From the NCBI GenBank assembly GCA_005888755.1, contig VBBQ01000030.1, positions 94,833 through 158,832 of the forward strand: a stretch of 64,000 nucleotides of DNA. The letters run 5' to 3'. This DNA is from Candidatus Bathyarchaeota archaeon. GTDB taxonomy: Archaea; Thermoproteota; Bathyarchaeia; 40CM-2-53-6. Shown one piece after another: positions 18,195 through 50,940 of the stretch. The notes beneath the pieces were generated by a model. It had not been told where the DNA came from, did no database searches, and saw nothing but the letters and a program-made list of their open reading frames with translations. Made by a program: the position numbers and the translations under genes. The first letter of the stretch is position 1. The number at the start of each line of letters is the position of its first letter.

Positions 18195-21065
18195 GTGCGG
18201 GCGAAAACGCCGATTCTAACTATCATCCTCACATTGACCATACTAACAGTCCTACCCAGCTCCCTGTCTTCGGGTCGCGCTGTAGCTCAGAGTGGTTTCA
18301 CGCCATGGTCTCCATTCGGTCCCCAAGAAAAGAAGCTCATCATAACCGATTATGGAGATCTCAACGGCATGTTAAACGCGTTCCAGAACGGACAGATCGA
18401 TATCCCTGACTCTCCGCTGGGAGTCGCAGGCACCTCATCGTGTATTAATGCAAACTTCTTCTGTACCAGCCCAACCTCGGAATTCGGGATCTTTCAGCTA
18501 GACATCAACCACCGCATACCGTTCTTGGGAATTTCACTTCAAGAGAATCGATCCGCTCCCCCTCCCTCGCTTATTCTGCCTGTTACCACAGGCCCAGGTT
18601 GTTCAGCAGGATTCGGCCAGTTAATCGTCCAACTTCGCAACCAGGAGCAGGGCAACGCGGTTATTCTTGACAGTCTGAACAAGTTGACTATCTCAAACCA
18701 GCCTAGCGGTTCGCCGTCAGCCACTGTAGGCGATTCTGGCGGAGTCAACCCGACGGGCACCTATGTTTTCCCGTGCATCTTAGGCGGTACCTACGCGATC
18801 AGCTCCAGCGTCTATAACAGTAACTCTTCCTGTTCGTCCGTGACGCCGACGATTTGTGTATCCGTCGGCGGCGGTCAAACTGTGACAACTACGCTCCTCG
18901 TAGATTGGAACAGTCCCAGCACGAAGCAACCGTCACAGGCAGGAGTCTACGTTGGACGTGCGCTTTCTCACCTCTTGGACAAGCCGAGCTTCATCCAGGG
19001 AGTGTTCGGGAATTTGGCAACGTTCGACGACGAACAAGTTGCTCCATCCCAGAATGTTCCCGGCCTCTTTTCGAACACGGCTGAGTGCTCCGATCATCTT
19101 TGGTTCAGTCCATGCAATCCGGTATCCGGGTACAACTTTGTCAGCGACAGCGTAGGTGGCGGTTCAGAATGGTGGACTCTCCCCGGCCAGGCGAACGGTG
19201 TCAGCTTGGGATATTCAGGCGTGTCTGATCTTAGAGCTGCTTGCGACGATTTTGTCAAGGCCGGCTTTACGGTTGTAGGTGGAGCAAATTCAACGGACTG
19301 CGGAGACGTCGCTCTGGCCTCTCAAGGCTCCGTCGCCCTCTCCACCTATGCACACCTGGACAACAGGGGGCAACACGTGTTCAACGCGTGGAGGACAAAC
19401 CAAGGACGAAAAGAATTCGGAATCATCCTTAGTGATACGATCAACTTTCTCTTCGGGACACCAAACAACGGTTGCACAGTTCTCTACTGGGGCACATCTT
19501 GTACGCCGAAGGGAGCAACATTCTCCCAGAGCCTTTGCGTCCTCCAGCAAGCCTGCGCGTGGAACATCTACCAGGGAGGCTGGGACCTAAGCCCCTTCCC
19601 GCAGCAACTATACGACGACTACCACAGCTCCTTCGGATCAAGCTTTTGCGGCGGTCCTCCAGTCGTAACCCTCGCAAACTACCCTGTATACTGCGATCCT
19701 GCGCTTGATACATATGCAGCGGCTGGAGAGTTCAGTCCCACCCTGCCCCAGTCTACCCAGTTCTTCGCCAAGGCTGCCGCGACAGGTACGTCAAATGGAA
19801 TGACAGATCCAGCCTTCACGCGCATAGACCAATTCCTGGCTCTGAACGGCTGGAACTTCCAACAGTGCACCGGGTCCCCACCTCCATGCTTCTCACGGTC
19901 GAGTCTCGTCAACACTCTCGGCCGCGGATTCCTCGCTGGCTACGGGTACTGGTCACTGCTGAACATGCGGCAAGTGCCCGGTTATGTTCCGCCTAGTCCA
20001 GGGTTCGCTCCTGGAGGCGGGGATCCGGATCTGATTCGTCGAGGCTTCAGCCAGGACATCTTCAGCATGAGCCCGTTCCAGGCCTACACGAACACTGAAA
20101 GGGAGATTGTAAGCCTCCTCTACGACTCCCTGCTGCAAGCGAACCCGATGACCGGAGGGGCAGATGGCCAGATCGTAGACTGGCAAACCATTGCCCACTC
20201 TTCCACTTTCAACCCGAGCGAAGTCTCATGCAACACCCTCAACGGTTGCATTACCGGAACAACAACGTCCATTTGGCAGCTTAGGAATGATATCAAATTC
20301 CAAGACGGAACCCCGCTGACGGCGGATGATGTCGTTTACACAATTCTCTCCTTCAGAGATGTCCCGGCAATTTACTACCAATATCTTGTGAGTAGTGTTT
20401 CCAGTGCAACTGCGCTTAGCTCTCGCACTGTACAGATCAAACTACAAGGTCAGAGTGCCTTCGGAATGTCTGACCTGGGTTCCGTGCCAATAATCCCCCG
20501 CCACATCTGGGAGCCGGTCTGTGGTCCCATCGTGAACGGAGGTATCCCTGGCGGGTCGACATCTCCATGCGCGGATCCCACGTTTGATCCGATGGCTCAA
20601 GGCATCATGATCGGCGGCGGGCCTTGGCAGTGCATCGTGCCTGTCGGATTTCCTAACGCGGGTCACGTGGGAGGATCTTGCGTAGAGCCAGTCTGCCAAC
20701 CGGCTTGCGTGGGAGGCCAAGTAGTCCAAATCGGCACAAAGATCCTGTTAACACGCTACGACGGGTTCGCCAGATGCTGCCCGGACGACACGTCCAGCAG
20801 TCTCTACAAGCTAAGCTGGGCCGACAAGAACAACGATGGAATCGTCAACATCCTCGACTTGGCAAATATCGCAGCTCATTACGGACAGCCAGATCCATAC
20901 TGGGTCAACTCAAACATCGCCCCAGGATCAACGGTCAACGCCGTGGACCTTGCGACCGTTGCGATCTACTTTGGCCACGGAACCATCTATCCATTCCGAC
21001 CCTTACAACTTACCGATTTGGACCCGCAAATAGATCCATTCTTCTGCCCCGCCACGGGATGTTAG
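18195..21065 (+). CDS. Secreted family 5 solute-binding-like protein, permuted order, dockerin-like C-terminus (copy 1)
   Basis: The 956 residues begin with a signal peptide (about 1-32). Near residue 67 comes QNGQIDIP, a motif found late in ordinary family 5 binding proteins. About residue 250 has the AxxHLLDKPSF block. The normally early blocks come last: SLLYDSLLQANP near 640, then KFQDGTPLTADDVVYTI near 702 and VPIIPRHIWEP. A dockerin-like EF-hand follows (NNDGIVNILDLANIAAHYG, near 880) and the protein ends DPFFCPATGC. It is the most divergent of the four paralogues. The start is GTG at 18195. No transporter subunits adjoin it, so it may bind peptides or act at the surface in another way. 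Confidence 0.8.
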   Translation: MRAKTPILTIILTLTILTVLPSSLSSGRAVAQSGFTPWSPFGPQEKKLIITDYGDLNGMLNAFQNGQIDIPDSPLGVAGTSSCINANFFCTSPTSEFGIFQLDINHRIPFLGISLQENRSAPPPSLILPVTTGPGCSAGFGQLIVQLRNQEQGNAVILDSLNKLTISNQPSGSPSATVGDSGGVNPTGTYVFPCILGGTYAISSSVYNSNSSCSSVTPTICVSVGGGQTVTTTLLVDWNSPSTKQPSQAGVYVGRALSHLLDKPSFIQGVFGNLATFDDEQVAPSQNVPGLFSNTAECSDHLWFSPCNPVSGYNFVSDSVGGGSEWWTLPGQANGVSLGYSGVSDLRAACDDFVKAGFTVVGGANSTDCGDVALASQGSVALSTYAHLDNRGQHVFNAWRTNQGRKEFGIILSDTINFLFGTPNNGCTVLYWGTSCTPKGATFSQSLCVLQQACAWNIYQGGWDLSPFPQQLYDDYHSSFGSSFCGGPPVVTLANYPVYCDPALDTYAAAGEFSPTLPQSTQFFAKAAATGTSNGMTDPAFTRIDQFLALNGWNFQQCTGSPPPCFSRSSLVNTLGRGFLAGYGYWSLLNMRQVPGYVPPSPGFAPGGGDPDLIRRGFSQDIFSMSPFQAYTNTEREIVSLLYDSLLQANPMTGGADGQIVDWQTIAHSSTFNPSEVSCNTLNGCITGTTTSIWQLRNDIKFQDGTPLTADDVVYTILSFRDVPAIYYQYLVSSVSSATALSSRTVQIKLQGQSAFGMSDLGSVPIIPRHIWEPVCGPIVNGGIPGGSTSPCADPTFDPMAQGIMIGGGPWQCIVPVGFPNAGHVGGSCVEPVCQPACVGGQVVQIGTKILLTRYDGFARCCPDDTSSSLYKLSWADKNNDGIVNILDLANIAAHYGQPDPYWVNSNIAPGSTVNAVDLATVAIYFGHGTIYPFRPLQLTDLDPQIDPFFCPATGC

Positions 21066-21072
21066 AGACTTT

Positions 21073-24000
21073 TTGCTTAGGGTTCTCAGTCTAGCTGTGA
21101 TTCTCAGTCTGTCTGTTCTTATGCTGTTGCCGGGAACGTATGCTCCGGTCCGTGCGCTCAGTCAGGCGTTCTATAGATTCTCGCCTTTCGGGCCTTTCAC
21201 CCAGCAGTTGATCATCCACTTCTACTCAGACTTTGACGTTATGTTCTCTCACTTCCAGCAGGGAGAGATCGACATCAGCGACTGGCAACTACAATCCCAG
21301 AACGCCATCAACACCTTCTGCAACAACGCCGACTTCTTCTGCACCTTGCCTCAGCCCGAGCTTGGTTATTTCGGGGAGCAGATTAACAATCATCCTTCGT
21401 TCATGGGGATTCCACTACGTCAAAACAGAACTATCAACCCAGCCTCGTTTACCTCAACTAGCTCTGCGACAGGCTGCAATACTGGTTTCGGCTCGTTGAT
21501 CATTACTCTCCTGAACCAGGAGACTAGCACGACTGTCCTAGACCCGCTGAACACTGTGACTGCAGCTAACCAACCGAGCGGTTCACCCTCCGTTACCTCT
21601 AGCGATTCTGGAGGAACAACTCCCAACGGTGTTTACGTTGTCCCGTGCATCCTTGCTGGAAACTATGCCCTCCGTTCAAGTGTTTACAATGGAACTGGGT
21701 CAGCTGGACCGGTCATTGTCAATATTGCCAGTGCAACAGTTACGAGTGGCACCTTCAACGTCAACTGGAACAGTCCGAGCAACGTTCGGCCAACCCAAGC
21801 ACGAGCGCTGTTCGGCGCTGCCATGGCCCACCTGCTGGACGACCCAGCGTTCGTCCGCACTGAATTGACAGGTGTGGCCGAATCGCCCTGCTCGTTCTGG
21901 GTTCCAGCACAAGGTGGAGCTTGTCCGACAGGCACTACCGCAGAATACCTGTGTCAGACCGCTCCGACGTTCTGTCCGACTGCAAATCCGGCAGGAGGTT
22001 TGCCAACTGAGGTCGATATTGCTGAATGTCAGTTCAACAATCACCCCTGGCTGAACGTTGTCGGCTGCTCACCCGATGCGACTGGACATGATGTCGGGCC
22101 CTACCACATCTCTGACAGCACCGTAACCGTGAAAACCAGTTTCTGGAATACAGGAACGCCATTCCTTGTCACGGGATATGCAGGATACGCTGGTCACGAT
22201 GACTTGAGGGCCGCTTGCGACGATTTCCTCTCAATGGGTCTCACACTCTCACCACCAACCGCCACATGCAACGACGTGGCTAACGCAGCCAGCCTAAACG
22301 CAGATCCCGGTGCCTATGCCCATTTCGTGCCCGCTGGAAGTGGACACATTTTGGACTTCATAAGAACGTCTATTGGAAGGCAACAGTCTGGCCAGATTAT
22401 CGCTGACACGTTGAACTTTCTCTTCGGAACACCCCAGAACAGAGACACCCAGGCTGGATTTGTCGGCACCGTTTGCTATTTGTTGTGTCCTCAGTATACT
22501 CGACATTACTGCAGCTTCAGTTTTCAGTGTTCTCCAATCGTCTTCGAGGACACGTCGCTCTCCGGGGGAAGCCCGGATGCCTGGCAACTATACACAGAGG
22601 GGCAAGGTTTTGATCCTACCCCCGACCAGTTTTTCATTAACAGAAACAGTGTTAACACGGGTCAAGTCTGTGCCGGTGTGCCCGTGTTCAAGCCGAACAA
22701 CTACGAATTCTGGTGCGATCCCCAATCCGACACTTGGAGTAGCGCAGGGGAATTCGCCCCCACAGCGACTTTGTCAGGGCAGTTCTTCCAAAGGAATATC
22801 CTAACCGAGCTCAACAACGCGGTGGACATTCCAGGCTTCTCATTCGTCGATACTTTCGTTGAGAATAATGGCTGGAATTTCGCACAATGCAACGGAGTAG
22901 CGTGCCTCAACTCACAGTCGAGCATCGTCAACACCGTAGGCTTCGGCACGCAAGCCGGTGGAGCCTATTTCTCACTGCTGAACGCGAGACAGGTTCCGGG
23001 ATACAATCCATGCTCTGTTCAAGGTGCTCCGGCCAATTGTGCTTCTTATGCTCCTGGAGGAGGTAACCCGAACATTATTCGTCGTGGCTTCTCGCAGGAC
23101 ACCAGTAATCTTAGTCCGTTCACGTTCAACAGCATCTGGGAAGGAGACGTGCTCAGCTCAATTTTTGACACAATGCTACAGCCGAATCCCAACACGGGCG
23201 GTGGAGGGGCCCAGTACATCGACTGGGGAACCACAAGACACAGTTCTTTCTTCAACCCGAATGAGGTTGGATGCAACTCGATTGTCGGATGTGCTACGGG
23301 TGTCACAACCCAGATCTGGCACTTACGGAACGACTGGAAGTTCTCGGACGGCAACGACGTTAAGGCGACTGACGTTGCTTACAGTATTATCGCCTATCGC
23401 GATGTACCCTCTTCCCTGCTGCAGAGCTATGTGCTAAACGTCGTCAGCGCTACCGGTCTTGACTGCGGGCCGGGACAGACATGCAAGACGCTCCAAGTGA
23501 AGCTCCAGACCCAGTGTCAAAATCCACAGTTCTGCTCCTTCAGCTCACCTTCTCTTTTCGATTTCAACATCGGTGCCACTCAGTTTGTTCTCGAAAAGTC
23601 GCTATGGGCACCTTACTGCGGGGATCCGCCGGTTCCAAATGGAACCTGCGCTAGCCCAGTGTTCGACCCGATGTATCCAAGCGCTAATAGCCCGGGTATC
23701 GAGGTAGGACCAGGACCTTGGTCGTGCATTGCTCCGATATCTGGAACAGGCGTTTCAGCAGGCCACGTCGGTGGACCTTGCGCTGAAACCGCAGCTGGTG
23801 TCTTGACAGGCAGCGCAATCATAACCGACGGCAAGATTCTCTTGTCAGAGAACACCAACTTTGCACGCTGCTGTCCAAACGGCCCTTCCGCACTCACAAG
23901 CTCTCTGTACAAGATCAGCTACGCGGATCACAATAACGATGGAGTGGTCAACATACTAGACTTAGCTGATGTCGCTTCGCACTTTGGAACAGCTGACCCG

Positions 24001-24168
24001 TACTGGGTCAACTCGAACATTGGATCAGGCACAACAGTCGGAGCAGAAGACCTCGCGACAGTGGCCATATACCTTGGACATGGCATAACCACACCATACA
24101 CACCACAAACGCTCACTCTAGTCGACCCGCAGACAGATCCATTCTTCTGCCCTGCCACAGGGTGCTAG
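21073..24168 (+). CDS. Secreted permuted family 5 solute-binding-like protein with dockerin-like module (copy 2)
   Basis: The 1031-residue protein has a signal peptide (about 1-28), then FSPFGPFTQQ and QQGEIDISDW (about 35-70). An Ig-like insertion of about 100 residues (132-235) ends NVNWNSPSN, then comes ARALFGAAMAHLLDDPAFV (240-262). The DAWQLYTEGQGFDP block (about 502) normally lies near the end of family 5 proteins. GGNPNIIRRGFSQDTSNLSP (about 662) and KFSDGNDVKATDVAYSI (about 756) normally lie at the beginning. The tail has NNDGVVNILDLADVASHFG (about 952) and DPFFCPATGC. Many paired Cys suggest disulfides. It starts at TTG only 8 bases after copy 1 and may share its transcript. Confidence 0.8.
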   Translation: MLRVLSLAVILSLSVLMLLPGTYAPVRALSQAFYRFSPFGPFTQQLIIHFYSDFDVMFSHFQQGEIDISDWQLQSQNAINTFCNNADFFCTLPQPELGYFGEQINNHPSFMGIPLRQNRTINPASFTSTSSATGCNTGFGSLIITLLNQETSTTVLDPLNTVTAANQPSGSPSVTSSDSGGTTPNGVYVVPCILAGNYALRSSVYNGTGSAGPVIVNIASATVTSGTFNVNWNSPSNVRPTQARALFGAAMAHLLDDPAFVRTELTGVAESPCSFWVPAQGGACPTGTTAEYLCQTAPTFCPTANPAGGLPTEVDIAECQFNNHPWLNVVGCSPDATGHDVGPYHISDSTVTVKTSFWNTGTPFLVTGYAGYAGHDDLRAACDDFLSMGLTLSPPTATCNDVANAASLNADPGAYAHFVPAGSGHILDFIRTSIGRQQSGQIIADTLNFLFGTPQNRDTQAGFVGTVCYLLCPQYTRHYCSFSFQCSPIVFEDTSLSGGSPDAWQLYTEGQGFDPTPDQFFINRNSVNTGQVCAGVPVFKPNNYEFWCDPQSDTWSSAGEFAPTATLSGQFFQRNILTELNNAVDIPGFSFVDTFVENNGWNFAQCNGVACLNSQSSIVNTVGFGTQAGGAYFSLLNARQVPGYNPCSVQGAPANCASYAPGGGNPNIIRRGFSQDTSNLSPFTFNSIWEGDVLSSIFDTMLQPNPNTGGGGAQYIDWGTTRHSSFFNPNEVGCNSIVGCATGVTTQIWHLRNDWKFSDGNDVKATDVAYSIIAYRDVPSSLLQSYVLNVVSATGLDCGPGQTCKTLQVKLQTQCQNPQFCSFSSPSLFDFNIGATQFVLEKSLWAPYCGDPPVPNGTCASPVFDPMYPSANSPGIEVGPGPWSCIAPISGTGVSAGHVGGPCAETAAGVLTGSAIITDGKILLSENTNFARCCPNGPSALTSSLYKISYADHNNDGVVNILDLADVASHFGTADPYWVNSNIGSGTTVGAEDLATVAIYLGHGITTPYTPQTLTLVDPQTDPFFCPATGC

Positions 24169-24204
24169 AGACAGACATGGACGCTCCTCGAATGCTGCTT
24201 CCGA

Positions 24205-24216
24205 TACACCTATTGG
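24205..24216 (+). promoter_or_regulatory. Degenerate TATA region before copy 3
   Basis: TACACCTATTGG sits at the same place relative to the start codon (core 40 bases upstream) as the TTATAC boxes before copies 1 and 4. It aligns with them through the shared upstream CTTCCGATA or CAGATA sequence. Its weaker match suggests lower promoter strength or reliance on readthrough. Confidence 0.3.
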
Positions 24217-24248
24217 CGCAACACCCGTTGAGGAGCTGAGAAGGTTCT

Positions 24249-27200
24249 TTGTTTAAGGTTCTCAGTCTTGCGGTAGTTCTCAGTCTGTCAGTTCTTATGG
24301 TGTTGCCGGGAACCTACACTCCGGTCCGCGCGGTCAACCAGAATGGCCCCACTCGCTTTTCGCCTTTCGGTCCTTTCACACAACAGATGATCATCCATTT
24401 CTACTCAGACTTCGACCCTGCGCTCTCAGCCTTCCAGCAAGGGCAGATAGACATCAGCGATTGGACTCTTCAATCCACAAGCCAGATCAACACATTTTGT
24501 AGCAACCCGGACTTCTACTGCACTTCACCCACAGGTCCGGGCGGATATTTTGGTCTAATGATTAACAATCACCCTTCATTTATGGGGATTCCACTCCTGC
24601 AACCTAGAACAGTAGGTCCCGTCTCGTTCACAACAACCAACACCACGCCCGGTTGCAGCACAGGCTTCGGCTCCCTGCAAATTACTCTCCGGAATCAGGA
24701 GACCGCTGCGACCATACTAGATTTCCTAAACATCCTAACTGTGCGTAATCAGCCGAGCGGTTCGCCGTCAGTAATGGTCAGCGACTCAGGGGGGTCCAGT
24801 CCGAACGGGGTCTACAAGGTTCCATGTATGCTCGCCGGCTCGTACTCCATCATGAGTAGTGTCTACAACGCAACAGGTATCATAGTAACAGTTGCGGGGA
24901 GCACTATTAAGTCAGGCATTTTGAACGTCAACTGGAACAGTCCCAGCAGTCTCAAGACGACCCAGGCTAGAACTCTTCTCGGTGCCGCGATCGCCCATCT
25001 TATTGACGATCCGGCGTGGGTCAGCGGTGCCTTTGGAAGTACCGCCCTGGCACCCTGCGCCAATGGCATCACCTCTCAGGGGATTGCATGTCCAACGGGG
25101 ACCTCGACAATGTACCAAGGCGGGTTGGGGACACCTCCTCCGGGCGGCCCTGCCTCCCAGATCGATTTGGCGGAATGCCAGTTCAACAATCATCCTTGGC
25201 TTAACGTGGCTGGCTGCTCGCCAGGCGCGACAGGCCACAATATTGGTCCGTACAATATTGCCGATGACAAGATCAGTGTCAGTTCCGAGTTCTGGAATAC
25301 TGGAACGAGCTATGGCGGTCAAGGCTACTCTGGCCACGATGACCTGCAGGCAGCATGCGACGACTTTGTCAGTATGGGTCTAACACTTTCGCCTTCGACC
25401 GCGACCTGTAACGATGTTGCGAACGCTGCTACCGGAACAATAGACCCTGGTGCATATCCTCACATTGTGCCGAACGGGCAGATCAAGACATACATCAGAG
25501 TCAACTTCGGTAGACAACAGTCCGGTCAGGTTATCGCTGACACTCTGAACTTTCTCTTCGGCACTCCCCAGAACAGGGCTTCTCAGACTGGTTTCGTCGG
25601 AACCGTCTGTTATGACGCTCGGACAACCCCATGCACACAGTTCACGCCCAAGTACTACACGTTCTCACAGGTGACGCCAATCGTGTTCGAGGATACCGTT
25701 GCTTCAGGCGGCAGTCCGGATGCATGGCAGTTGTATACGGGATCGCACAGCGTCGGTTTCTTTCCTGCCGAGCAGTACTTCGTCAACCATAACAGCATTG
25801 GAACTGGTGGGATCTGTGCCGGTCAATCTGTCATTCATCCAGAAAACCCCGAATTCTGGTGCGATCCGGAGACGGACACTTTTGGGAGTGCAGGAGAGTT
25901 CGCTCCGACGCTTAACCTCTCAGAACAGTTCTTTCAAACCGAACTGGTTTACGAACTCAACAGGGCGGTGGATGTCCCTGCCTTTACCTTCGTAAATGCG
26001 TTCGTCGAAAACAATGGATGGAACTTCCAACAATGCACAAGCCAGTGCGCAAATACACAGTCCAGCATTGTTAACACTGAGATGCAGGGCACAATAGCTG
26101 GCGGAGCATATTTCACACTGCTAAACGCGCGTCAGGTGCCCGGATACGATCCGTGCGCCTTGCCAGGTGCTCCAGTCAACTGCTCATCCTACAAGCCCGG
26201 AGGAGGCAATCCGAACCTCATCCGCAGAGGATTCTCCCAGGACACCTCTAACCTCAGCCCGTTCACTTTCAACAGTCCATGGGAGGGAGAGATTGTATCC
26301 TCGATTTTTGACACAATGCTTCAACCGAATCCCAATGTGAGCGGATCCTCGCAACTCTTTGACTGGGGCACGATCAGCCACAGTTCCAGTTTCAACCCTA
26401 ACGAGGTTGGATGCAACTCGATCAACGGATGTGTAACAGGTGTCACGACGCAGATCTGGCGCCTAAGGAACGATTGGAAATTCTCGGACGGAAATGATGT
26501 CAAGGCTACAGATGTTGCGTACAGTATCATAGCCAACCGGGATGTGCCATCGTCACTATTGCAAGTCTATGTGATAAACGTGGTAAGTGCAGTCGGTCTT
26601 GACTGCGCACCCGGACAACCATGTAAGACATTGCAAGTAAAGATTCAAGGCCAGAGCGCGTTGAACGATTTCAGCATCGGAGCCACACAGCTTGTCATCG
26701 AAAAGTCGTTGTGGGCACCGTCTTGCGGTGATCCGCCGGTTGCAGGCGGAGTATGCGCCAGTCCAACCTTCGATCCGATGTATCCATCTGGAAACGCGCC
26801 CGGCATCATGGTTGGACCCGGCCCGTGGGCCTGTATCTCTCCGATAGCTGGTACAGGCGTACCCGCGGGCCACATCGGAGGTCCCTGCTCTAGGGACGCC
26901 AGTGGAAAGTTAGTTGGAAGCGCGATAACCCTTGATGGAACAGTCCTCTTGTCGGAAAATACTAACTTTGTGCGTTGCTGTCCGAATGGTCCATCAGCGA
27001 CCTCTAGCTCTCTATACAAGGTCAGCTATGCTGACCACAACAATGATGGAGTGGTCAACATACTCGACCTGGCAGATATTGCCTCGCACTATGGGACAGC
27101 TGACCCGTACTGGGTCAATCCAAATATTGCGTCAGGCACAACAGTCGGAGCAATAGACTTGGCAACAGTAGCAATATATTTCGGTCACGGCATAACCGCC

Positions 27201-27275
27201 CCGTACACGCCACGAACCCTTACTCAGGTCGACCCGCAGATAGATCCTTTCTTCTGTCCCGCTACGGGTTGCTAG
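24249..27275 (+). CDS. Secreted permuted family 5 solute-binding-like protein with dockerin-like module (copy 3)
   Basis: The 1008 residues are closely related to copies 2 and 4 along the whole length. Signal peptide about 1-28; QQGQIDISDW near 60; an Ig-like insertion ending NVNWNSPSS near 230; ARTLLGAAIAHLIDDPAWV next; DAWQLYTGSHSVGF near 485. Then come the normally N-terminal blocks GGNPNLIRRGFSQDTSNLSP and KFSDGNDVKATDVAYSIIAN, followed by VIEKSLWAP and MVGPGPWACISP. The dockerin-like EF-hand NNDGVVNILDLADIASHYG and the DPFFCPATGC tail close the protein. The start is TTG at 24249 in a sequence context shared with copy 4. Confidence 0.8.
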   Translation: MFKVLSLAVVLSLSVLMVLPGTYTPVRAVNQNGPTRFSPFGPFTQQMIIHFYSDFDPALSAFQQGQIDISDWTLQSTSQINTFCSNPDFYCTSPTGPGGYFGLMINNHPSFMGIPLLQPRTVGPVSFTTTNTTPGCSTGFGSLQITLRNQETAATILDFLNILTVRNQPSGSPSVMVSDSGGSSPNGVYKVPCMLAGSYSIMSSVYNATGIIVTVAGSTIKSGILNVNWNSPSSLKTTQARTLLGAAIAHLIDDPAWVSGAFGSTALAPCANGITSQGIACPTGTSTMYQGGLGTPPPGGPASQIDLAECQFNNHPWLNVAGCSPGATGHNIGPYNIADDKISVSSEFWNTGTSYGGQGYSGHDDLQAACDDFVSMGLTLSPSTATCNDVANAATGTIDPGAYPHIVPNGQIKTYIRVNFGRQQSGQVIADTLNFLFGTPQNRASQTGFVGTVCYDARTTPCTQFTPKYYTFSQVTPIVFEDTVASGGSPDAWQLYTGSHSVGFFPAEQYFVNHNSIGTGGICAGQSVIHPENPEFWCDPETDTFGSAGEFAPTLNLSEQFFQTELVYELNRAVDVPAFTFVNAFVENNGWNFQQCTSQCANTQSSIVNTEMQGTIAGGAYFTLLNARQVPGYDPCALPGAPVNCSSYKPGGGNPNLIRRGFSQDTSNLSPFTFNSPWEGEIVSSIFDTMLQPNPNVSGSSQLFDWGTISHSSSFNPNEVGCNSINGCVTGVTTQIWRLRNDWKFSDGNDVKATDVAYSIIANRDVPSSLLQVYVINVVSAVGLDCAPGQPCKTLQVKIQGQSALNDFSIGATQLVIEKSLWAPSCGDPPVAGGVCASPTFDPMYPSGNAPGIMVGPGPWACISPIAGTGVPAGHIGGPCSRDASGKLVGSAITLDGTVLLSENTNFVRCCPNGPSATSSSLYKVSYADHNNDGVVNILDLADIASHYGTADPYWVNPNIASGTTVGAIDLATVAIYFGHGITAPYTPRTLTQVDPQIDPFFCPATGC

Positions 27276-27314
27276 GGACAGATGTGGACATCTCTCGAAC
27301 GCTCTTTTTTCAGA

Positions 27315-27325
27315 TAGACTTATAC
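27315..27325 (+). promoter_or_regulatory. TATA box of copy 4
   Basis: TAGACTTATAC differs at one base from the box before copy 1 and its core lies 40 bases before the TTG at 27359. The conserved box and spacing support short-leader transcription of each copy. Confidence 0.5.
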
Positions 27326-27358
27326 CCTCGCGACTTGCTCGCCTCCTGAGAAGACTCT

Positions 27359-30300
27359 TTGTTCAGGGTTCTCAGTCTTGCGATAGTTCTCAGTCTGTCT
27401 GTTCTTATGGTGTTGCCGGGAACCTATACTCCGGTTCGCGCGATCAACCAGACTAATCCCTTACGTTTTTCGCCCTTCGGGCCTTTCACGCAGCAGATGA
27501 TCATTCATTTTTACTCAGACTTCACCGTGATGTTCCAGCATTTCCAGCTGGGAGAAATCGACATCAGTGACTGGCCTCTACAATCCAGTGCCGACATCAG
27601 CACTTTCTGCTCTAACGCTGACTTCTTCTGTACGAGCCCTCAACCTCAGCTCGGATATTTCGGGCAGGAACTCAATAGCCATACTCCGTTTATGGGAATC
27701 GCGCTGACACAAGCAAGGACTACCAGTCCACCCTCGTACACCACAACCTCTACTGCAGCAGGCTGCAGCAGTGGTTTCGGCTCGTTGACCGTTACTGTAC
27801 GGAATCAGGAGACCAGTTCGATCGTGTTAGACTCACTGAACGCTTTGACCGTCGCCAACCAACCGAGCGGGTCACCATCGGCAACCGTTAGCGACTCAGG
27901 AGGATCAACTCCAAACGGCGTGTACAACATTCCATGTATCCTCGCTGGGACCTACAGCCTTAGATCCAGCGTCTATAATGCCACCGGCACTACCGTGGCC
28001 ATTGGTAGTGCAACGACTACCTCAGGCACTCTTAATGCCAACTGGAACAGTCCGAGTAATGTGAGGCCAACTAGGAACAGAGCGCTCCTCGGCGCTGCGA
28101 TAGCTCACTTGCTTGATGACCCAGAGTTTGTTTCCAGCACTTTCGGTCCCGTAGCCTCCGCACCTTGCGCTTTCATGGTTCTCGCGCAAGGACAGGTCTG
28201 TCCAACCGGTACAACAAGTTCATACCAGTGCCTTCTCCCACCATTAGCTACTCCCGCACCCTGTCCAGCATTGAATCCTCTGGGCGGTGCCGCTACGCAG
28301 AATGATAATGCTGAATGCCAGTTTGGTAATCACCTCTGGCTGAATGTGATCGGATGCGCCTCAGGCGCGACCGGCCACGACCTCGGCCCCTACAACGTTG
28401 GTGACGACAGAGTGAACGTCAACGCTCGATTCTGGAACACCGGAGCTTTCGGCGTCGTCCAAGGTTATTCCGGCCACGACGACTTGCGAGCTGCGTGTGA
28501 CGATCTCGTTTCAATGGGTCTCACGCTCTCGCCCTCAACCGCCACCTGTAACGATGTGGCAAATGCGGCTGACCTGACCACGGACCCAGGCACATACGCG
28601 CACATCGTGCCTGCCGGGGATGGTCACATCAAATACTACATCAGGTCCAACTTTGGAAGACAACAGTTCGGCCAGGTCATCGCCGACACTTTGAACTACC
28701 TCTTTGGAACCCCTCAGAACAGAGCTGCTCAGACAGGTTTTGTCGGCACCGTCTGCTATGGTCAGTGTCCTCAGTACACTCCAAGGTACTACACCTTTAC
28801 CCAGGTGCAGAGTTGCGTCTTTGCGGACACCCCGGCCTCCGGGGGCAGCCCAGATTGTTGGCAGCTATACACGGCGGGGCAGGGCTTCGACCCGACAGCA
28901 GACCAGTACTACCTGAACAGAAACAGCATTCAAACTGGCACCATCTGTGCCGGCGTGGCTGCGTTCAAGCCGAATAACTACGACTTCTGGTGCGATCCGC
29001 AGACAGACACTGACAGCAACGCGGGTGAGTTCTCCGCAACATTGGCTATCTCAGGGCAGTTCTTCCAGAGAGCGCTCCTCGATGAGCTCAACAACGCGGT
29101 TAGCATCCCAGGCTTCTCCTTCGTTGACACTTTCGCTGAGAACAACGGCTTCAACCTCCAACAATGCACCACACAGTGCTCACCCACTCAGTCGAGTATA
29201 GTCAATACCGTAGGCTTCGGCACGCTGGCGGGAAGTGCTTACTACACGTTGCTGAACGCTCGTCAGGTTCCGGGATATACGGCTCACGTCGCGGCGTACC
29301 AACCTATTCCCGGTTTGATTCGCAGAGGCTTCTCGCAGGACACTAGCAATCTCAGCCCGTTCACGTTCAACAGCGTATGGGAAGGTGATGTGCTCGCCGA
29401 TATTTACGACACAATGCTCAGCCCTGATCCTAACACAAGTGGTGGGAACACCCAGTTCATCGATTGGGGAACAACCAGCCACAGTTCTCGCTTCAACGCC
29501 AACGAGCTTGGATGCAACTCTATCAACGGATGCTCTATCGGAGTCACTACACAAATCTGGCACATACGCAACGACTGGAAGTTTTCCGACGGCAATGATG
29601 TCAAGGCTAGTGACGTAGCCTACAGTATTATAGCGTACCGAGACGTGCCATCTTCCTTGTTACAAGGCTACGTGGTAAACGTAGTCAGTGCTTTCGGTCT
29701 CGACTGCGGTGCCGGGCAACCATGCAAGACACTGCAGGTTAAACTGCAAGGCCAGAGCTCACTGTTCGAATACAACATCGGAGCCACTCAATACGTCCTT
29801 GAAAAGTCGTTGTGGGCACCGTACTGCGGAGACCCACCAATTCCAGGTGGGACCTGTGCCAGCCCCTTGTTCGATCCCATGTATCCAAGCGCTAATAGTC
29901 CGGGTATTGAGGTAGGACCAGGTCCTTGGTCGTGCATTGCTCCGATATCTGGAACAGGCGTATCAGCAGGCCATGTTGGTGGTCCATGTGCTGAGACATC
30001 GACTGCCTTGACAGGGGGAGCAATAACGCGCGACGGCAGAATTCTCCTTCAGGCGAACACGTTCAACGCTCGATGTTGTCCAACCGGACCAACCTCTACC
30101 GGCAGCTCTCTGTACAGGATCAGCTATGCGGATCACAACAATGATGGTGTCGTCAACATACTAGACCTAGCTGATGTTGCCTCGCATTACGGAACTACTG
30201 ACTCGTATTGGGTCAACCCGAACATTGCGACAGGCAGCACAGTCGGAGCTGTAGACCTGGCAACTGTAGCAATATACTTCGGACACGGCACAACCACGCC

Positions 30301-30373
30301 ATTCGCTCCCGAAACGCTCTTTCAAGTCGACCCACAAGTCGACCCATTCTTCTGCCCAAGCAACGGCTGCTAA
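27359..30373 (+). CDS. Secreted permuted family 5 solute-binding-like protein with dockerin-like module (copy 4)
   Basis: The 1004-residue paralogue has the same layout: signal peptide, QLGEIDISDW near 60, Ig-like insertion, ALLGAAIAHLLDDPEFV near 240, DCWQLYTAGQGFDP near 500. Then come the normally early family 5 blocks LIRRGFSQDTSNLSPFTF and KFSDGNDVKASDVAYSIIAY, and EVGPGPWSCIAP, which parallels the GTGPY turn of the family. The EF-hand NNDGVVNILDLADVASHYG follows. The tail varies slightly, DPFFCPSNGC, keeping both Cys. The start is TTG at 27359 in the conserved context CTTTGTTCAGGGTTCTCAG. Confidence 0.8.
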   Translation: MFRVLSLAIVLSLSVLMVLPGTYTPVRAINQTNPLRFSPFGPFTQQMIIHFYSDFTVMFQHFQLGEIDISDWPLQSSADISTFCSNADFFCTSPQPQLGYFGQELNSHTPFMGIALTQARTTSPPSYTTTSTAAGCSSGFGSLTVTVRNQETSSIVLDSLNALTVANQPSGSPSATVSDSGGSTPNGVYNIPCILAGTYSLRSSVYNATGTTVAIGSATTTSGTLNANWNSPSNVRPTRNRALLGAAIAHLLDDPEFVSSTFGPVASAPCAFMVLAQGQVCPTGTTSSYQCLLPPLATPAPCPALNPLGGAATQNDNAECQFGNHLWLNVIGCASGATGHDLGPYNVGDDRVNVNARFWNTGAFGVVQGYSGHDDLRAACDDLVSMGLTLSPSTATCNDVANAADLTTDPGTYAHIVPAGDGHIKYYIRSNFGRQQFGQVIADTLNYLFGTPQNRAAQTGFVGTVCYGQCPQYTPRYYTFTQVQSCVFADTPASGGSPDCWQLYTAGQGFDPTADQYYLNRNSIQTGTICAGVAAFKPNNYDFWCDPQTDTDSNAGEFSATLAISGQFFQRALLDELNNAVSIPGFSFVDTFAENNGFNLQQCTTQCSPTQSSIVNTVGFGTLAGSAYYTLLNARQVPGYTAHVAAYQPIPGLIRRGFSQDTSNLSPFTFNSVWEGDVLADIYDTMLSPDPNTSGGNTQFIDWGTTSHSSRFNANELGCNSINGCSIGVTTQIWHIRNDWKFSDGNDVKASDVAYSIIAYRDVPSSLLQGYVVNVVSAFGLDCGAGQPCKTLQVKLQGQSSLFEYNIGATQYVLEKSLWAPYCGDPPIPGGTCASPLFDPMYPSANSPGIEVGPGPWSCIAPISGTGVSAGHVGGPCAETSTALTGGAITRDGRILLQANTFNARCCPTGPTSTGSSLYRISYADHNNDGVVNILDLADVASHYGTTDSYWVNPNIATGSTVGAVDLATVAIYFGHGTTTPFAPETLFQVDPQVDPFFCPSNGC

Positions 30374-46689: not shown

Positions 46690-49600
46690 CTAGTTGTTCC
46701 AGTAGGGTCTTGTCGCAATGAAGTGGAGTTTTGCGTCTAGAAGATCCTGATAGAATTCTTCCTCTCTGTCACGCATTGTGGCGAGTATTCTGCTGGCTGT
46801 CTGCGGTCCTATTCCATAAACGGATTGGGCAATTACAGCTCGTCTTCCATAGGAGATAACTAGGTCAGCTGATCTTCTTGCTCTCGCCAGAACCTTCTGT
46901 TCGTTTTCGTCGAGATTCTCTCTGTTCCTCTTCTTCTTGACGATGTCTGCAGCGTAATGGCTGGACCAGAAAAGTGGAGCGAGAAGTCTTGACCCGCAGG
47001 AGGTGCATTGAGGATGGTCCGGAAGATCGGCAATCAGGATCTCGGGGTTAAGGATTCCGCAATCGAAGCACAGCATGTCTGTCACGCGTCCTTCTATGGA
47101 GATGCGGAGCCTCGCTAGATTATCAGCAGCCACGTTCTCTGGAGCTATTAGTTCCGGGACGTCCACGTGCCGGTAAATTATGTGATAGGCTAGAGGAGTT
47201 GGCCTTTCCTTCGACTGAAAGAATTGGACTTCCATTGATCCTTTTTTGATCCGTAGGAATATTTCTTTGACTGCATCGAAATCGGAGTGCTCCATAAGCG
47301 CCTCCCTGATAGTCTCGTCGTAGATGGGAGTAAGTCGGTACCTTAGCATCAATTCCTTCATTGCATCTCCATACATCAGTCGGCCCCGGTTCAGTGCCCC
47401 GAACCTCTCCGCGATGTGTTTCATGTGAAGTTGCCATGGAAAGTGACGGTGGAGTACGCCATGGCACGCGCCTCCTAGCACAGTTTCCTCAACTCCGAAG
47501 ATCTGTTCTCTGAATAGCTCTTCCAATTCGAGGTCAGAAGTGTCGGCGTTCATCTCGAAGAGAATGCGATAGGCGTCGGACCACCACATCCGGACAATGC
47601 CTTGGCGGCGGAACAGTTCCTCAATCACTTCACCGAGCGTGAAGTTGACAATATCTCCGAGGTGTGTATGGAGGATGATATATCGATCAAACCCTTCGAT
47701 CAGGACACGTTGGTCAGTCGGGACAGCTGCGCCTGTAGCCTTATGGGCTTCGATCTCTTCAACAACTCGTTTCAGCCCGTAGACGTCGGCCGGCCACAGC
47801 TGCGACAATCTCTCAACCGAGATCGACTTTGGAGCATGTTGGGCAATGTTTCTTTCAACAATCGCCCTATAGGCGCCGACCTTGGTTGCAAGAGCACGGG
47901 GCACTGGGAGTATTTGCCCATCCCATCCAGGGATCGCGGCTGTGGGATCGTTAATGGGGAGAACGTAGACCTTAGCGTCATCTGTTATCTGCTTGATCTG
48001 CCAGACTCGGCCCTTGACGATAAAGTTGAGTCCAATGCGTGCCTTGGTGATCATGAATTCCTCGCCGAGGAAGCCGACGTTTTGCAGGTTCGTGAGGTCT
48101 ACAACTAAGTATCGGCGTTCGTCGGGGATCATGCTCAAGTTTTCGAAATAGTAGAGCCTGGTCCTTGAGGTGCGGTAGAGTGTGTCCTTCTCTCTCTTGA
48201 GGTAACCCATCTTGTGCATGAACTCGATGACCTTGTCAAGTGGGTCATCCTCTAAGTCTCGGTATGGGTAGGCTCGTTTGATGATGCTCTTGGCTTGTGA
48301 GAGTTCCAGGCTTCCTTCCGAGTCCATCAGCACTCCAGCGATCTGATGGGCGAGCACGTCCAATGCTCCAATGTGGATGTTGGTATGCTCTAGTCGCCCC
48401 TCCTTCGCTAGCTCGATAACTCCAACAGATTCCAAGAGATCCTCGGTCGAAACGGAAACGAGGACCCCTTGTGAGGTTCTTGTGAGGGTGTGACCGGATC
48501 GTCCGACTCTTTGCACTAGACTGCTTACTTGTCTTGGGGACATGTATTGGATGACAAGATCGACGGATCCAATGTCAATTCCCAGCTCAAGGGTACTCGT
48601 GCAATTGTGAGTCACGACACCTCCAACTGCGTAGGTTTGAGTATGTTCAACCTCAAAGTTGACAACGTCCACTTTCCCTTCAACATTTTTGACTGAACGA
48701 ACCTGCGAAATCCCGAACTTACCTTCGATGAGTCCGTCAAGCAACGGAGATTTGAGGAGTCCGTTGAGACGAGATAGAGAGTCTACACCGATACCTCTTT
48801 TCGGGTTCTCATACTTTGTGGAATAGCCGATCAGTTTCCAAAGCGTATACGAGGAGATTTTTCTTTCGATTCTCTTGAATTTGATGTACGGGCCAAGACC
48901 GTAGAAGGTTCTTTGTTTTCTTCCGAGATAAGGGGCATTCAATTCGCGGGCCTTAATGGATTGTTCTCTCACAAGTTCGAGCAATCGCGACTTGTCGTCA
49001 CTATAGACCACACTGACAGTGAAACCCTCACCGGAGGCTCCGTTCGCCTTCCGAAGCTTGGGCTTCATTCCGAGGGACAGCAGTAAGAAAATCAAGTACT
49101 CTCGATTGACGGGATCGAAAGTCACAAATTGAAGCTGTTCAAGCCGGTTGTAGTTCCTTACAACAGCGCATCCATCTCCATCTAGGTACCCTGCTAGGAA
49201 GGAGCTTACAATATCGAACGGGAGAGGTAGAGTCTTCCACAGATTGTCAAGAACATTCGATAGCGGCTTTGAATGAGCCTGCAGCACCATGCGCGGCTTG
49301 TTCCCTCGAAAACTCGAACCACTTTCTCTAATCACAGCACGATACATTGAACCCTTGTAAAAGTCTGAAAGGTAAGATTCTACCTGGCCAAGCTTCTTTG
49401 AGTCGGTGTTGAAGAAACGCATGTATTTGTCGCCGTCAGACTTGCGGAAACCAAGTAGATATCCAAGTCGGAGGTCAACCCAAGACGGAAAAGTGTACCT
49501 CGTTTGCGTAGTGCTGAAATCGTTGACCTTGAGAAGGTCATCATGACTCATGACTAACTTTACAAGGGATAATCGACTTACCTCTGAATCAGGGTTTCCC

Positions 49601-50940
49601 GACGGATCGTAACCAAGAGAACTTATGGTCGGATTCTTGACGAAAAGATTCGGATAATCAATCAGGGCGTAAGTCGGGATTGGTGGCCCTTGCATTCGAC
49701 CGATCGTGACCAAAGCATCTCCAACGACAAGTTGGCCGGCCGTTTTCCACGCAAAGCCATCTGCTCCCAAGCACAGGACGGGATGATTGGGGGTGACCCT
49801 AAGGAGACCTAGTTCATGCCTAACGTGCATCAGTCGATCGGTTGTGTTTCGGTACTTTCTCATGACTGGCCTGAAAACGGTTTTGCAAGAGTCAAGGTCA
49901 TAGGAGAGGACACTATCTCCTACTGTAATCTCTCTCCCATGTCTCACACCACGCGTGGTAACGATCATCTCGTCCTCTGGTATGCAGACGAGTCCTTTGA
50001 TCTCTCTAGCCTTGAATGCTTCTTCGGCTCTAACTCTTTCTTCTTTTGGGAGTGAGCCATGATGAACCATTATTTTTCGGTCCATCATGTTGAATTTCGA
50101 CCCGAGCAGCTCGGCGTTGACGCGGCTGTTGACGAAAATGAGAGTCGAGTCGTGAGCTTCCACCAAATCATCGACAAGTGTAAGTCGGGCGGCAGCCTCC
50201 GGAGTAGTGTAGAGCCGCTGAGCTAGCTCGCGATCTTCTTCTCCGGGCAGCGGGTATTCTACTTTGTACTTGGTCGGCTTGTTGAGCGGAATCTGTACTA
50301 TCTTGACTGGCTGATTGCCTCCGAGGAACAGTGCTATCTCTTCTGGGTTACCTACTGTGGCTGAAAGTCCTACTCTCTGGTAGCCGTTGACGCAGATTTC
50401 TCTGAGGCGTTCGAGGCCGACGGTCATTTGAACTCCTCGACGATCACCTGCCAGTTCGTGAATCTCATCAACTATGACGGACTTGACGTGTCGTAGATGT
50501 TCCCTCATGCGTTTGCCTGGCAATATTGCTTGGAGGGTTTCGGGTGTTGTGATGAGAAGGTCGGGGGGTTTGACTGCCATTCGTCTCCTATCTTTGGCAG
50601 GGGTGTCTCCGTGTCGGATCTCAACCGAGAAGCCTAGCTTGTTGGACCATGTTTGGAGTCGTTTGAGGAGGTCTCGGTTTAGCGCTCTGAGCGGTGTTAT
50701 GTAGACAAGTGAAATGCCTTGTCTGTCGTTATTCCTGATCATTCTATCGATTAACGGAAGTAGCGCTGCTTCGGTCTTACCTGAACCAGTGGGGGCGATT
50801 ATGAGGACATTGTCGCCTTGGGCAATGAGGGGGATGGCCTCCACCTGAGGCGGAGTGGGCGTCGAGATTCCGGTCTCTTGGAGCAGTCCCTTCAGTGGAG
50901 GAGAAAGGAGGGCGAAGGCTTCCGGAGCCATGGATGCCAT
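46690..50940 (-). CDS. lhr: Lhr-type superfamily 2 helicase interrupted by an intein
   Basis: The precursor is 1416 residues; without the intein (residues 319-779) the helicase is 955, a usual Lhr length. Helicase motifs are APTGSGKTEAA (Walker A, about 50-58), VIVDEIHELAG (DEIH, 158-161) and GLSATVGNPEE (motif III). After splicing, KGLV joins CTSTLELGIDIG (motif V), then come VQRVGRSGH (motif VI) and the winged-helix and Lhr-core regions. Two Cys pairs near the end (CFDCG and CTSCG) suggest a zinc site. Lhr enzymes unwind or anneal nucleic acids in repair. The start is ATG at 50940. Confidence 0.93.
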   Translation of the reverse strand: MASMAPEAFALLSPPLKGLLQETGISTPTPPQVEAIPLIAQGDNVLIIAPTGSGKTEAALLPLIDRMIRNNDRQGISLVYITPLRALNRDLLKRLQTWSNKLGFSVEIRHGDTPAKDRRRMAVKPPDLLITTPETLQAILPGKRMREHLRHVKSVIVDEIHELAGDRRGVQMTVGLERLREICVNGYQRVGLSATVGNPEEIALFLGGNQPVKIVQIPLNKPTKYKVEYPLPGEEDRELAQRLYTTPEAAARLTLVDDLVEAHDSTLIFVNSRVNAELLGSKFNMMDRKIMVHHGSLPKEERVRAEEAFKAREIKGLVCIPEDEMIVTTRGVRHGREITVGDSVLSYDLDSCKTVFRPVMRKYRNTTDRLMHVRHELGLLRVTPNHPVLCLGADGFAWKTAGQLVVGDALVTIGRMQGPPIPTYALIDYPNLFVKNPTISSLGYDPSGNPDSEVSRLSLVKLVMSHDDLLKVNDFSTTQTRYTFPSWVDLRLGYLLGFRKSDGDKYMRFFNTDSKKLGQVESYLSDFYKGSMYRAVIRESGSSFRGNKPRMVLQAHSKPLSNVLDNLWKTLPLPFDIVSSFLAGYLDGDGCAVVRNYNRLEQLQFVTFDPVNREYLIFLLLSLGMKPKLRKANGASGEGFTVSVVYSDDKSRLLELVREQSIKARELNAPYLGRKQRTFYGLGPYIKFKRIERKISSYTLWKLIGYSTKYENPKRGIGVDSLSRLNGLLKSPLLDGLIEGKFGISQVRSVKNVEGKVDVVNFEVEHTQTYAVGGVVTHNCTSTLELGIDIGSVDLVIQYMSPRQVSSLVQRVGRSGHTLTRTSQGVLVSVSTEDLLESVGVIELAKEGRLEHTNIHIGALDVLAHQIAGVLMDSEGSLELSQAKSIIKRAYPYRDLEDDPLDKVIEFMHKMGYLKREKDTLYRTSRTRLYYFENLSMIPDERRYLVVDLTNLQNVGFLGEEFMITKARIGLNFIVKGRVWQIKQITDDAKVYVLPINDPTAAIPGWDGQILPVPRALATKVGAYRAIVERNIAQHAPKSISVERLSQLWPADVYGLKRVVEEIEAHKATGAAVPTDQRVLIEGFDRYIILHTHLGDIVNFTLGEVIEELFRRQGIVRMWWSDAYRILFEMNADTSDLELEELFREQIFGVEETVLGGACHGVLHRHFPWQLHMKHIAERFGALNRGRLMYGDAMKELMLRYRLTPIYDETIREALMEHSDFDAVKEIFLRIKKGSMEVQFFQSKERPTPLAYHIIYRHVDVPELIAPENVAADNLARLRISIEGRVTDMLCFDCGILNPEILIADLPDHPQCTSCGSRLLAPLFWSSHYAADIVKKKRNRENLDENEQKVLARARRSADLVISYGRRAVIAQSVYGIGPQTASRILATMRDREEEFYQDLLDAKLHFIATRPYWNN
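48604..49986 (-). mobile_element. Intein with LAGLIDADG homing endonuclease in Lhr
   Basis: The 461-residue intein begins with Cys (block A, CIPEDEMIVTT...VGDSVLSYD), has block B (LLRVTPNHPVL), two LAGLIDADG-type motifs (YLLGFRKSDGDKY near precursor residue 494 and FLAGYLDGDGC near 581), and ends with VEHTQTYAVGGVVTHN, where His-Asn is the usual terminus. The next extein residue is Cys. All residues needed for splicing are visible, and both endonuclease motifs keep an acidic residue, so it may be mobile. The insertion is exactly at helicase motif V. Confidence 0.92.

Follow-up and report, generated by a model that had tools for sequence, protein, structure and literature searches.

Four adjacent genes carry family 5 motifs in a rotated order

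Family 5 solute-binding proteins (SBP5, PF00496; OppA/DppA/NikA/AppA, structural cluster C) belong to one of the largest prokaryotic receptor families, and four adjacent genes at 18195-30373 of the window (the whole stretch of 64,000 nucleotides analysed here) raise the question of whether their products are circular permutations of this family. The ORFs lie on the plus strand, about 7-83 bp apart, and encode proteins of 956 aa (copy 1, 18195..21065), 1031 aa (copy 2, 21073..24168), 1008 aa (copy 3, 24249..27275) and 1004 aa (copy 4, 27359..30373), each with an N-terminal hydrophobic signal. Identity to copy 4 is 73% for copy 2, 70% for copy 3 and 47% for copy 1, and the genes flanking the cluster, an aminotransferase class V gene upstream and a TGS-domain GTPase gene downstream, are unrelated to it. 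We infer that the four genes most likely encode exported paralogues that serve a Dpp/Opp-type ABC importer as substrate-binding proteins; a peptide or sugar importer is the most likely type, an inference made without substrate data.

The initial annotation had described the family 5 motifs as rotated, and both the ORFs and the motif positions agree with that description. Over the four copies GEIDI stands at residues 64-66, the AHLLD block at 249-258 and the CDP-D block at 499-547, followed by RRGFSQ (the canonical start) at 615-670, F-DG at 702-757 and G-GPW at 807-879. Two further elements had gone unmentioned, namely a beta-rich insert, which in each copy lies at about residues 120-240 and separates GeiDi from the AHLLD block, and a C-terminal dockerin-like module. 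In copy 1 the canonical C-terminal part (GeiDi to QVPGY, including the beta-rich insert) spans 18318..19994, as placed by hhalign and motif positions; the canonical N-terminal part (RRGFSQ...FQDGTPLTADDVVY...GGGPW...RCCP) follows at 20028..20783, according to the PF00496 match and hhalign, and the dockerin-like module (first F-hand ADKNNDGIVNILDL, second degenerate) at 20820..20970, according to dockerin profiles and motifs. The canonical C-terminal parts of copies 2, 3 and 4 (21193..23007, 24372..26147 and 27482..29278) were delimited with the type A profile introduced below and motif positions, the canonical N-terminal parts (23080..23877, 26223..26984 and 29321..30082) with PF00496 and the type A profile, and the dockerin-like modules (23923..24072, 27030..27179 and 30128..30277) with PF00404 and dockerin profiles, all on the plus strand.

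The four proteins have 30-36 cysteines each and a conserved terminal Gly-Cys, and their relatives in sister genomes terminate in Tyr-Asp-Cys; a disulfide network or a modification of the terminal cysteine is possible. Elsewhere in the window (46690-50940, minus strand), an intein with a LAGLIDADG homing endonuclease splits an Lhr-type helicase gene (Pfam intein splicing match at 337-779).

Both halves of the SBP5 profile are present in swapped order

In a Pfam search the start of the PF00496 profile matched the C-terminal half only of copies 1-4. Copy 1 aligns profile positions 16-100 with residues 689-770 (E 8e-13), while in copies 2-4 the start region is again found in the C-terminal half (E 5e-5 to 5e-6), with 17-59 at residues 745-787, 18-46 at residues 734-762 and 17-49 at residues 730-762, respectively. 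The whole-protein score is 48.7 bits for copy 1, above the gathering threshold of 32.4, and 23.1-26.4 bits for copies 2-4, under it; an NCBIfam search returned weak partial matches only. The N-terminal half of the four copies had no Pfam match, as would be the case if only the C-terminal half derived from SBP5 and the N-terminal half were an unrelated domain with a coincidental GEIDI-type motif. Since this half is too diverged in the window copies for the canonical HMM alone to detect it, we relied on bridging type A profiles and on profile-profile comparison.

A profile of the window family (22 sequences) was compared with the canonical SBP5 profile by hhalign. Window-family positions 604-863 align with canonical 16-209 (score 158.6) and positions 42-555 with canonical 208-483 (score 75.5), so that canonical 208-483 stands ahead of 16-209. 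The first 265 residues of the N-terminal half reach a score of 54.5, while none of 20 column-shuffled controls exceeds 19.7, which speaks against an unrelated N-terminal domain. As hhalign E-values stem from single pairwise comparisons, we base the case on scores, rotation and shuffles. When the canonical profile was rotated against the window family, a single peak was obtained at the type A cut. The rotated profile scores 213 and covers 462/480 canonical core columns, compared with 156 over 179 columns for the unrotated one. Homology of the window family to SBP5 thus extends over the whole profile, and the canonical N-to-C order is not kept.

Bridging through the type A profile, built on relatives with the same permutation, led to the same picture. 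Each of copies 1-4 shows two significant co-linear stretches; in copy 1, 9-107 corresponds to 8-106 of the profile at 1e-7 and 453-812 to 243-544 at 7e-35, the latter stretch spanning the point at which the old C- and N-termini are joined. In a window-family member of a sister genus (L141:5379-8711), the plain canonical HMM is sufficient: 43-109 matches profile 236-301 and 717-800 matches profile 106-194. Compact relatives of the same clade have N-terminal halves scoring 110-133 bits, above the PF00496 cut-off, and one of them (G021:C19) matches 146-344 and then 1-143, both over the cut-off, in one ORF. The initial annotation had proposed that two PF00496 hits in swapped order would support a permutation. 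This pattern was found directly in the compact relatives, with the canonical HMM in the sister-genus protein, and by profile-profile alignment in the window copies; neither of the refuting outcomes was seen, whether a single match running co-linearly along the unrotated profile or an N-terminal half of unrelated origin. We consider it very improbable that the N-terminal half is foreign to SBP5.

Could the permutation be merely apparent and result from assembly error, a frameshift or the fusion of neighbouring half-genes? No evidence supporting such an artefact was found, and it is contradicted by a continuous reading frame that has only one N-terminal signal, by recurrence in dozens of genomes, and by a cut point that is fixed within each type, the rotation scans of types A and B peaking sharply; we give it next to no credence. 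The initial annotation had argued against an assembly artefact from the presence of four copies, an argument that understates the case, the arrangement being phylum-wide. Judged from sequence comparison, copies 1-4 are very probably circular permutations of SBP5, and the swapped order explains why annotation sees permuted SBP5s as half-matches.

In structure prediction, the AlphaFold model of whole copy 1, from a 7-sequence alignment, is unusable (pLDDT 32.7), and that of the C-terminal half is partly usable (mean pLDDT 42.9, core blocks about 52-82). Compared with solved structures, this partial, low-confidence model finds SBP5 chains (E 4e-5 to 1e-3), which supports the predicted SBP5 fold of the C-terminal half and does not prove it. 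Homology and order have been demonstrated, the fold has not; in the absence of a confident structure, a two-lobed cluster C fold of the permuted chain remains inferred.

SBP5s of the phylum are permuted at several points

We surveyed 38 genomes of the order, 121 of the class and 250 of the phylum, the last with the type A profile. Many ORFs contain, within one reading frame, both PF00496 halves in swapped order. A PF00496 search of the genome carrying the window identified a second such protein (L014:706-2724, contig C25), in which profile 289-359 comes ahead of 2-278 in one frame and which has a C-terminal hydrophobic anchor. This differently permuted form, type B, is present in several genomes of the genus (L014:706-2724, L022). 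Cut points were determined on 47 permuted and 26 canonical ORFs with a sorting profile of 542 columns built from 16 canonical archaeal SBP5s. The cut lies at about column 235-240 in type A, at about column 370-375 in type B and at about column 279 in type C (L063:400-2178 and L064:1375-3120). When the canonical profile, trimmed of signal and tail columns, is rotated in 10-column steps, compact type A proteins, which score 99-146 bits unrotated, reach 188-242 bits at a single cut, and type B proteins go from 143-224 to 167-315 bits at another, while canonical controls do not gain.

Full-length co-linear matches to the type A profile were observed in many families of the phylum. When the PDB was compared with this profile, there was no full-length co-linear match among the best 60 of 100 listed chains, and AppA (1xoc) aligned in canonical order. 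No relatives were found in viral contigs. The survey also returned a class-wide type A-like family (L153-L157, ORFs of 849-916 aa), in which the C-terminal half has diverged too far to be recognised by PF00496.

Permuted SBP5s form at least three lineages

Trees were inferred from de-rotated sequences with IQ-TREE, and FastTree agrees. Type A forms a single clade (SH-aLRT 99 / UFBoot 98), the main group of type B (B-main) a separate one (100/100), and type B' together with type C a clade grouped with five canonical proteins (100/100). From the separation of these three groups we count at least three permuted lineages. Type C is nested with B', and within this small clade the position of the cut seems to have shifted. 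The canonical-order tree left the window family unplaced, and its position was obtained using the type A profile; copy 1 was included, copies 2-4 being left out as too divergent. The window family is nested in type A beside L151, which comes from another family of the order, with supports of 0.96-1.00. The type A permutation most likely had a single origin, and we propose independent permutations, with other cut points, in other SBP5 lineages of the phylum. The route to type A may have been duplication and truncation, which is inferred; no tandem-duplication intermediate was found, and a 2059-aa ORF in L152 contains one SBP5 unit only.

A dockerin-like module occupies the position of a membrane anchor

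Compact type A proteins end in a C-terminal hydrophobic (transmembrane) helix, and at this position the window family has a module with a canonical first F-hand (D-x-N-x-D-G...D), a degenerate second one and a conserved Gly-Cys terminus. Dockerin_1 (PF00404) scores 12-14 bits in copies 2-4, below the Pfam gathering cut-off of 22.9 (in copy 2, profile 1-23 at 14.1 bits). Because of the degenerate second F-hand and the sub-cut-off score we call the module dockerin-like, and cohesin binding is not assured. The module profile is similar both to solved dockerins, matching cellulosomal dockerins in the PDB at 1.6e-4 and 6.6e-4, and to the genome's own dockerins. An HMM made from non-SBP dockerins only scores window-family SBPs at 12-42 bits where they are detected, with 40 for a fifth paralogue of the same genome. 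In another window-family paralogue (L006:3-4007, G000 contig C17) the module is split in two by an inserted NHL-repeat propeller.

Five cohesin matches were found in the genome, along with several dockerin proteins encoded separately. The fifth paralogue (L115:8881-11904, minus strand) lies on contig C13 within a one-strand gene run in the order dockerin protein, cohesin-like+PKD+TM, cohesin+PKD+TM, SBP, DppB, DppC, DppD, DppF, and the adjoining cohesin gene (L115:12005-13399) matches PF00963 at 30.5 bits (E 5e-7; cut-off 24.1). This cohesin-SBP-Dpp arrangement recurs in G014, G018, G005, G010 and partly in G012, and Dpp-type permease and ATPase genes adjoin both the fifth paralogue and its relatives. 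No transporter gene and no cohesin gene was seen at the four-copy cluster of the window, and the pairing of its receptors with the contig C13 operon is an inference.

In the DppC-type permease of the operon (L115:6271-7695, minus strand), TM1 and TM2 are separated by about 210 additional residues, which may form an extracellular domain in contact with the enlarged receptor. Near multi-dockerin proteins, L116:6328-12684 (minus strand) encodes a possible scaffold of 2118 aa, which resembles a cohesin at its N-terminus and contains numerous PKD-like repeats.

We regard it as fairly probable that the receptors are held at the surface by dockerin-cohesin pairing, an inference for which no binding data exist. 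The proteins could instead be genuine type A SBP5s whose module does not dock and acts as a calcium-stabilised cap, or which are held by the terminal cysteine or by other means, as soluble or S-layer-associated scavengers. The degenerate F-hand and low score would fit this, as would the Gly-Cys terminus, the 30-36 cysteines per protein and the extra sequence beyond the module in some family members (L027-L029). Non-docking is opposed by cohesin-PKD-TM genes that directly adjoin the SBP gene in several genomes, and by the cohesin and dockerin complement of the genome itself; we consider it less likely than docking, but a serious alternative.

Proposed mechanism and relation to known systems

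We propose that the mature chain would begin after the canonical 'N-P-N-Y-F/W' strand (about residue 210 of AppA), run through the canonical C-terminal part, cross the old C-to-N junction by the linker QVPGY...RRGFSQ, and end beyond the canonical N-terminal part; the new C-terminus would bear the anchor. With all canonical elements present at the profile level, the same two-lobed receptor should form. The dockerin of the window proteins may then clip onto membrane-anchored cohesin-PKD proteins at the cell surface, where the four orphan receptors, with different substrates, would feed a shared DppBCDF transporter and docking would keep several of them close to one importer. Docking, substrates and transporter sharing have not been demonstrated. 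On balance we lean towards a scheme in which repeated permutation of SBP5 (near columns 238, 279 and 372, in at least three and probably four events), combined with the replacement of the anchor by a dockerin, gave rise to an importer with exchangeable, cohesin-docked receptors.

The window proteins share with SBP5 all homologous profile regions and, in their relatives, adjoining Dpp-type permease and ATPase genes; they differ in the rotated order. ANME archaea have dockerin-bearing NikA/OppA-type SBPs and cohesins in the same archaeon (PMC9012536), so the dockerin element alone is not new. The accessible portion of that report resembles our case in combining an SBP5 receptor with a dockerin in an archaeon encoding cohesins, and mentions neither permutation nor a conserved cohesin-SBP-DppBCDF operon. 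Non-cellulosomal cohesin/dockerin pairs of Archaeoglobus fulgidus (cited in PMC9012536) likewise occur in an archaeon not known for cellulosomes; the difference is that in the present case the two modules share an operon with an ABC importer. The initial annotation knew of no described permuted family 5 protein, and our searches of the open full-text literature turned up no report of an SBP5 permuted in nature, which is weak evidence of absence with most subscription papers outside it.

Natural permutation that is repeated, old and widespread would mean that chain order in this family is constrained neither by the fold nor by receptor-transporter contact, and natural SBP5 permutants would be ready-made for biosensor design. 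Altogether, permutation combined with the dockerin module suggests that archaea may have a modular way of keeping several receptors around one transporter.
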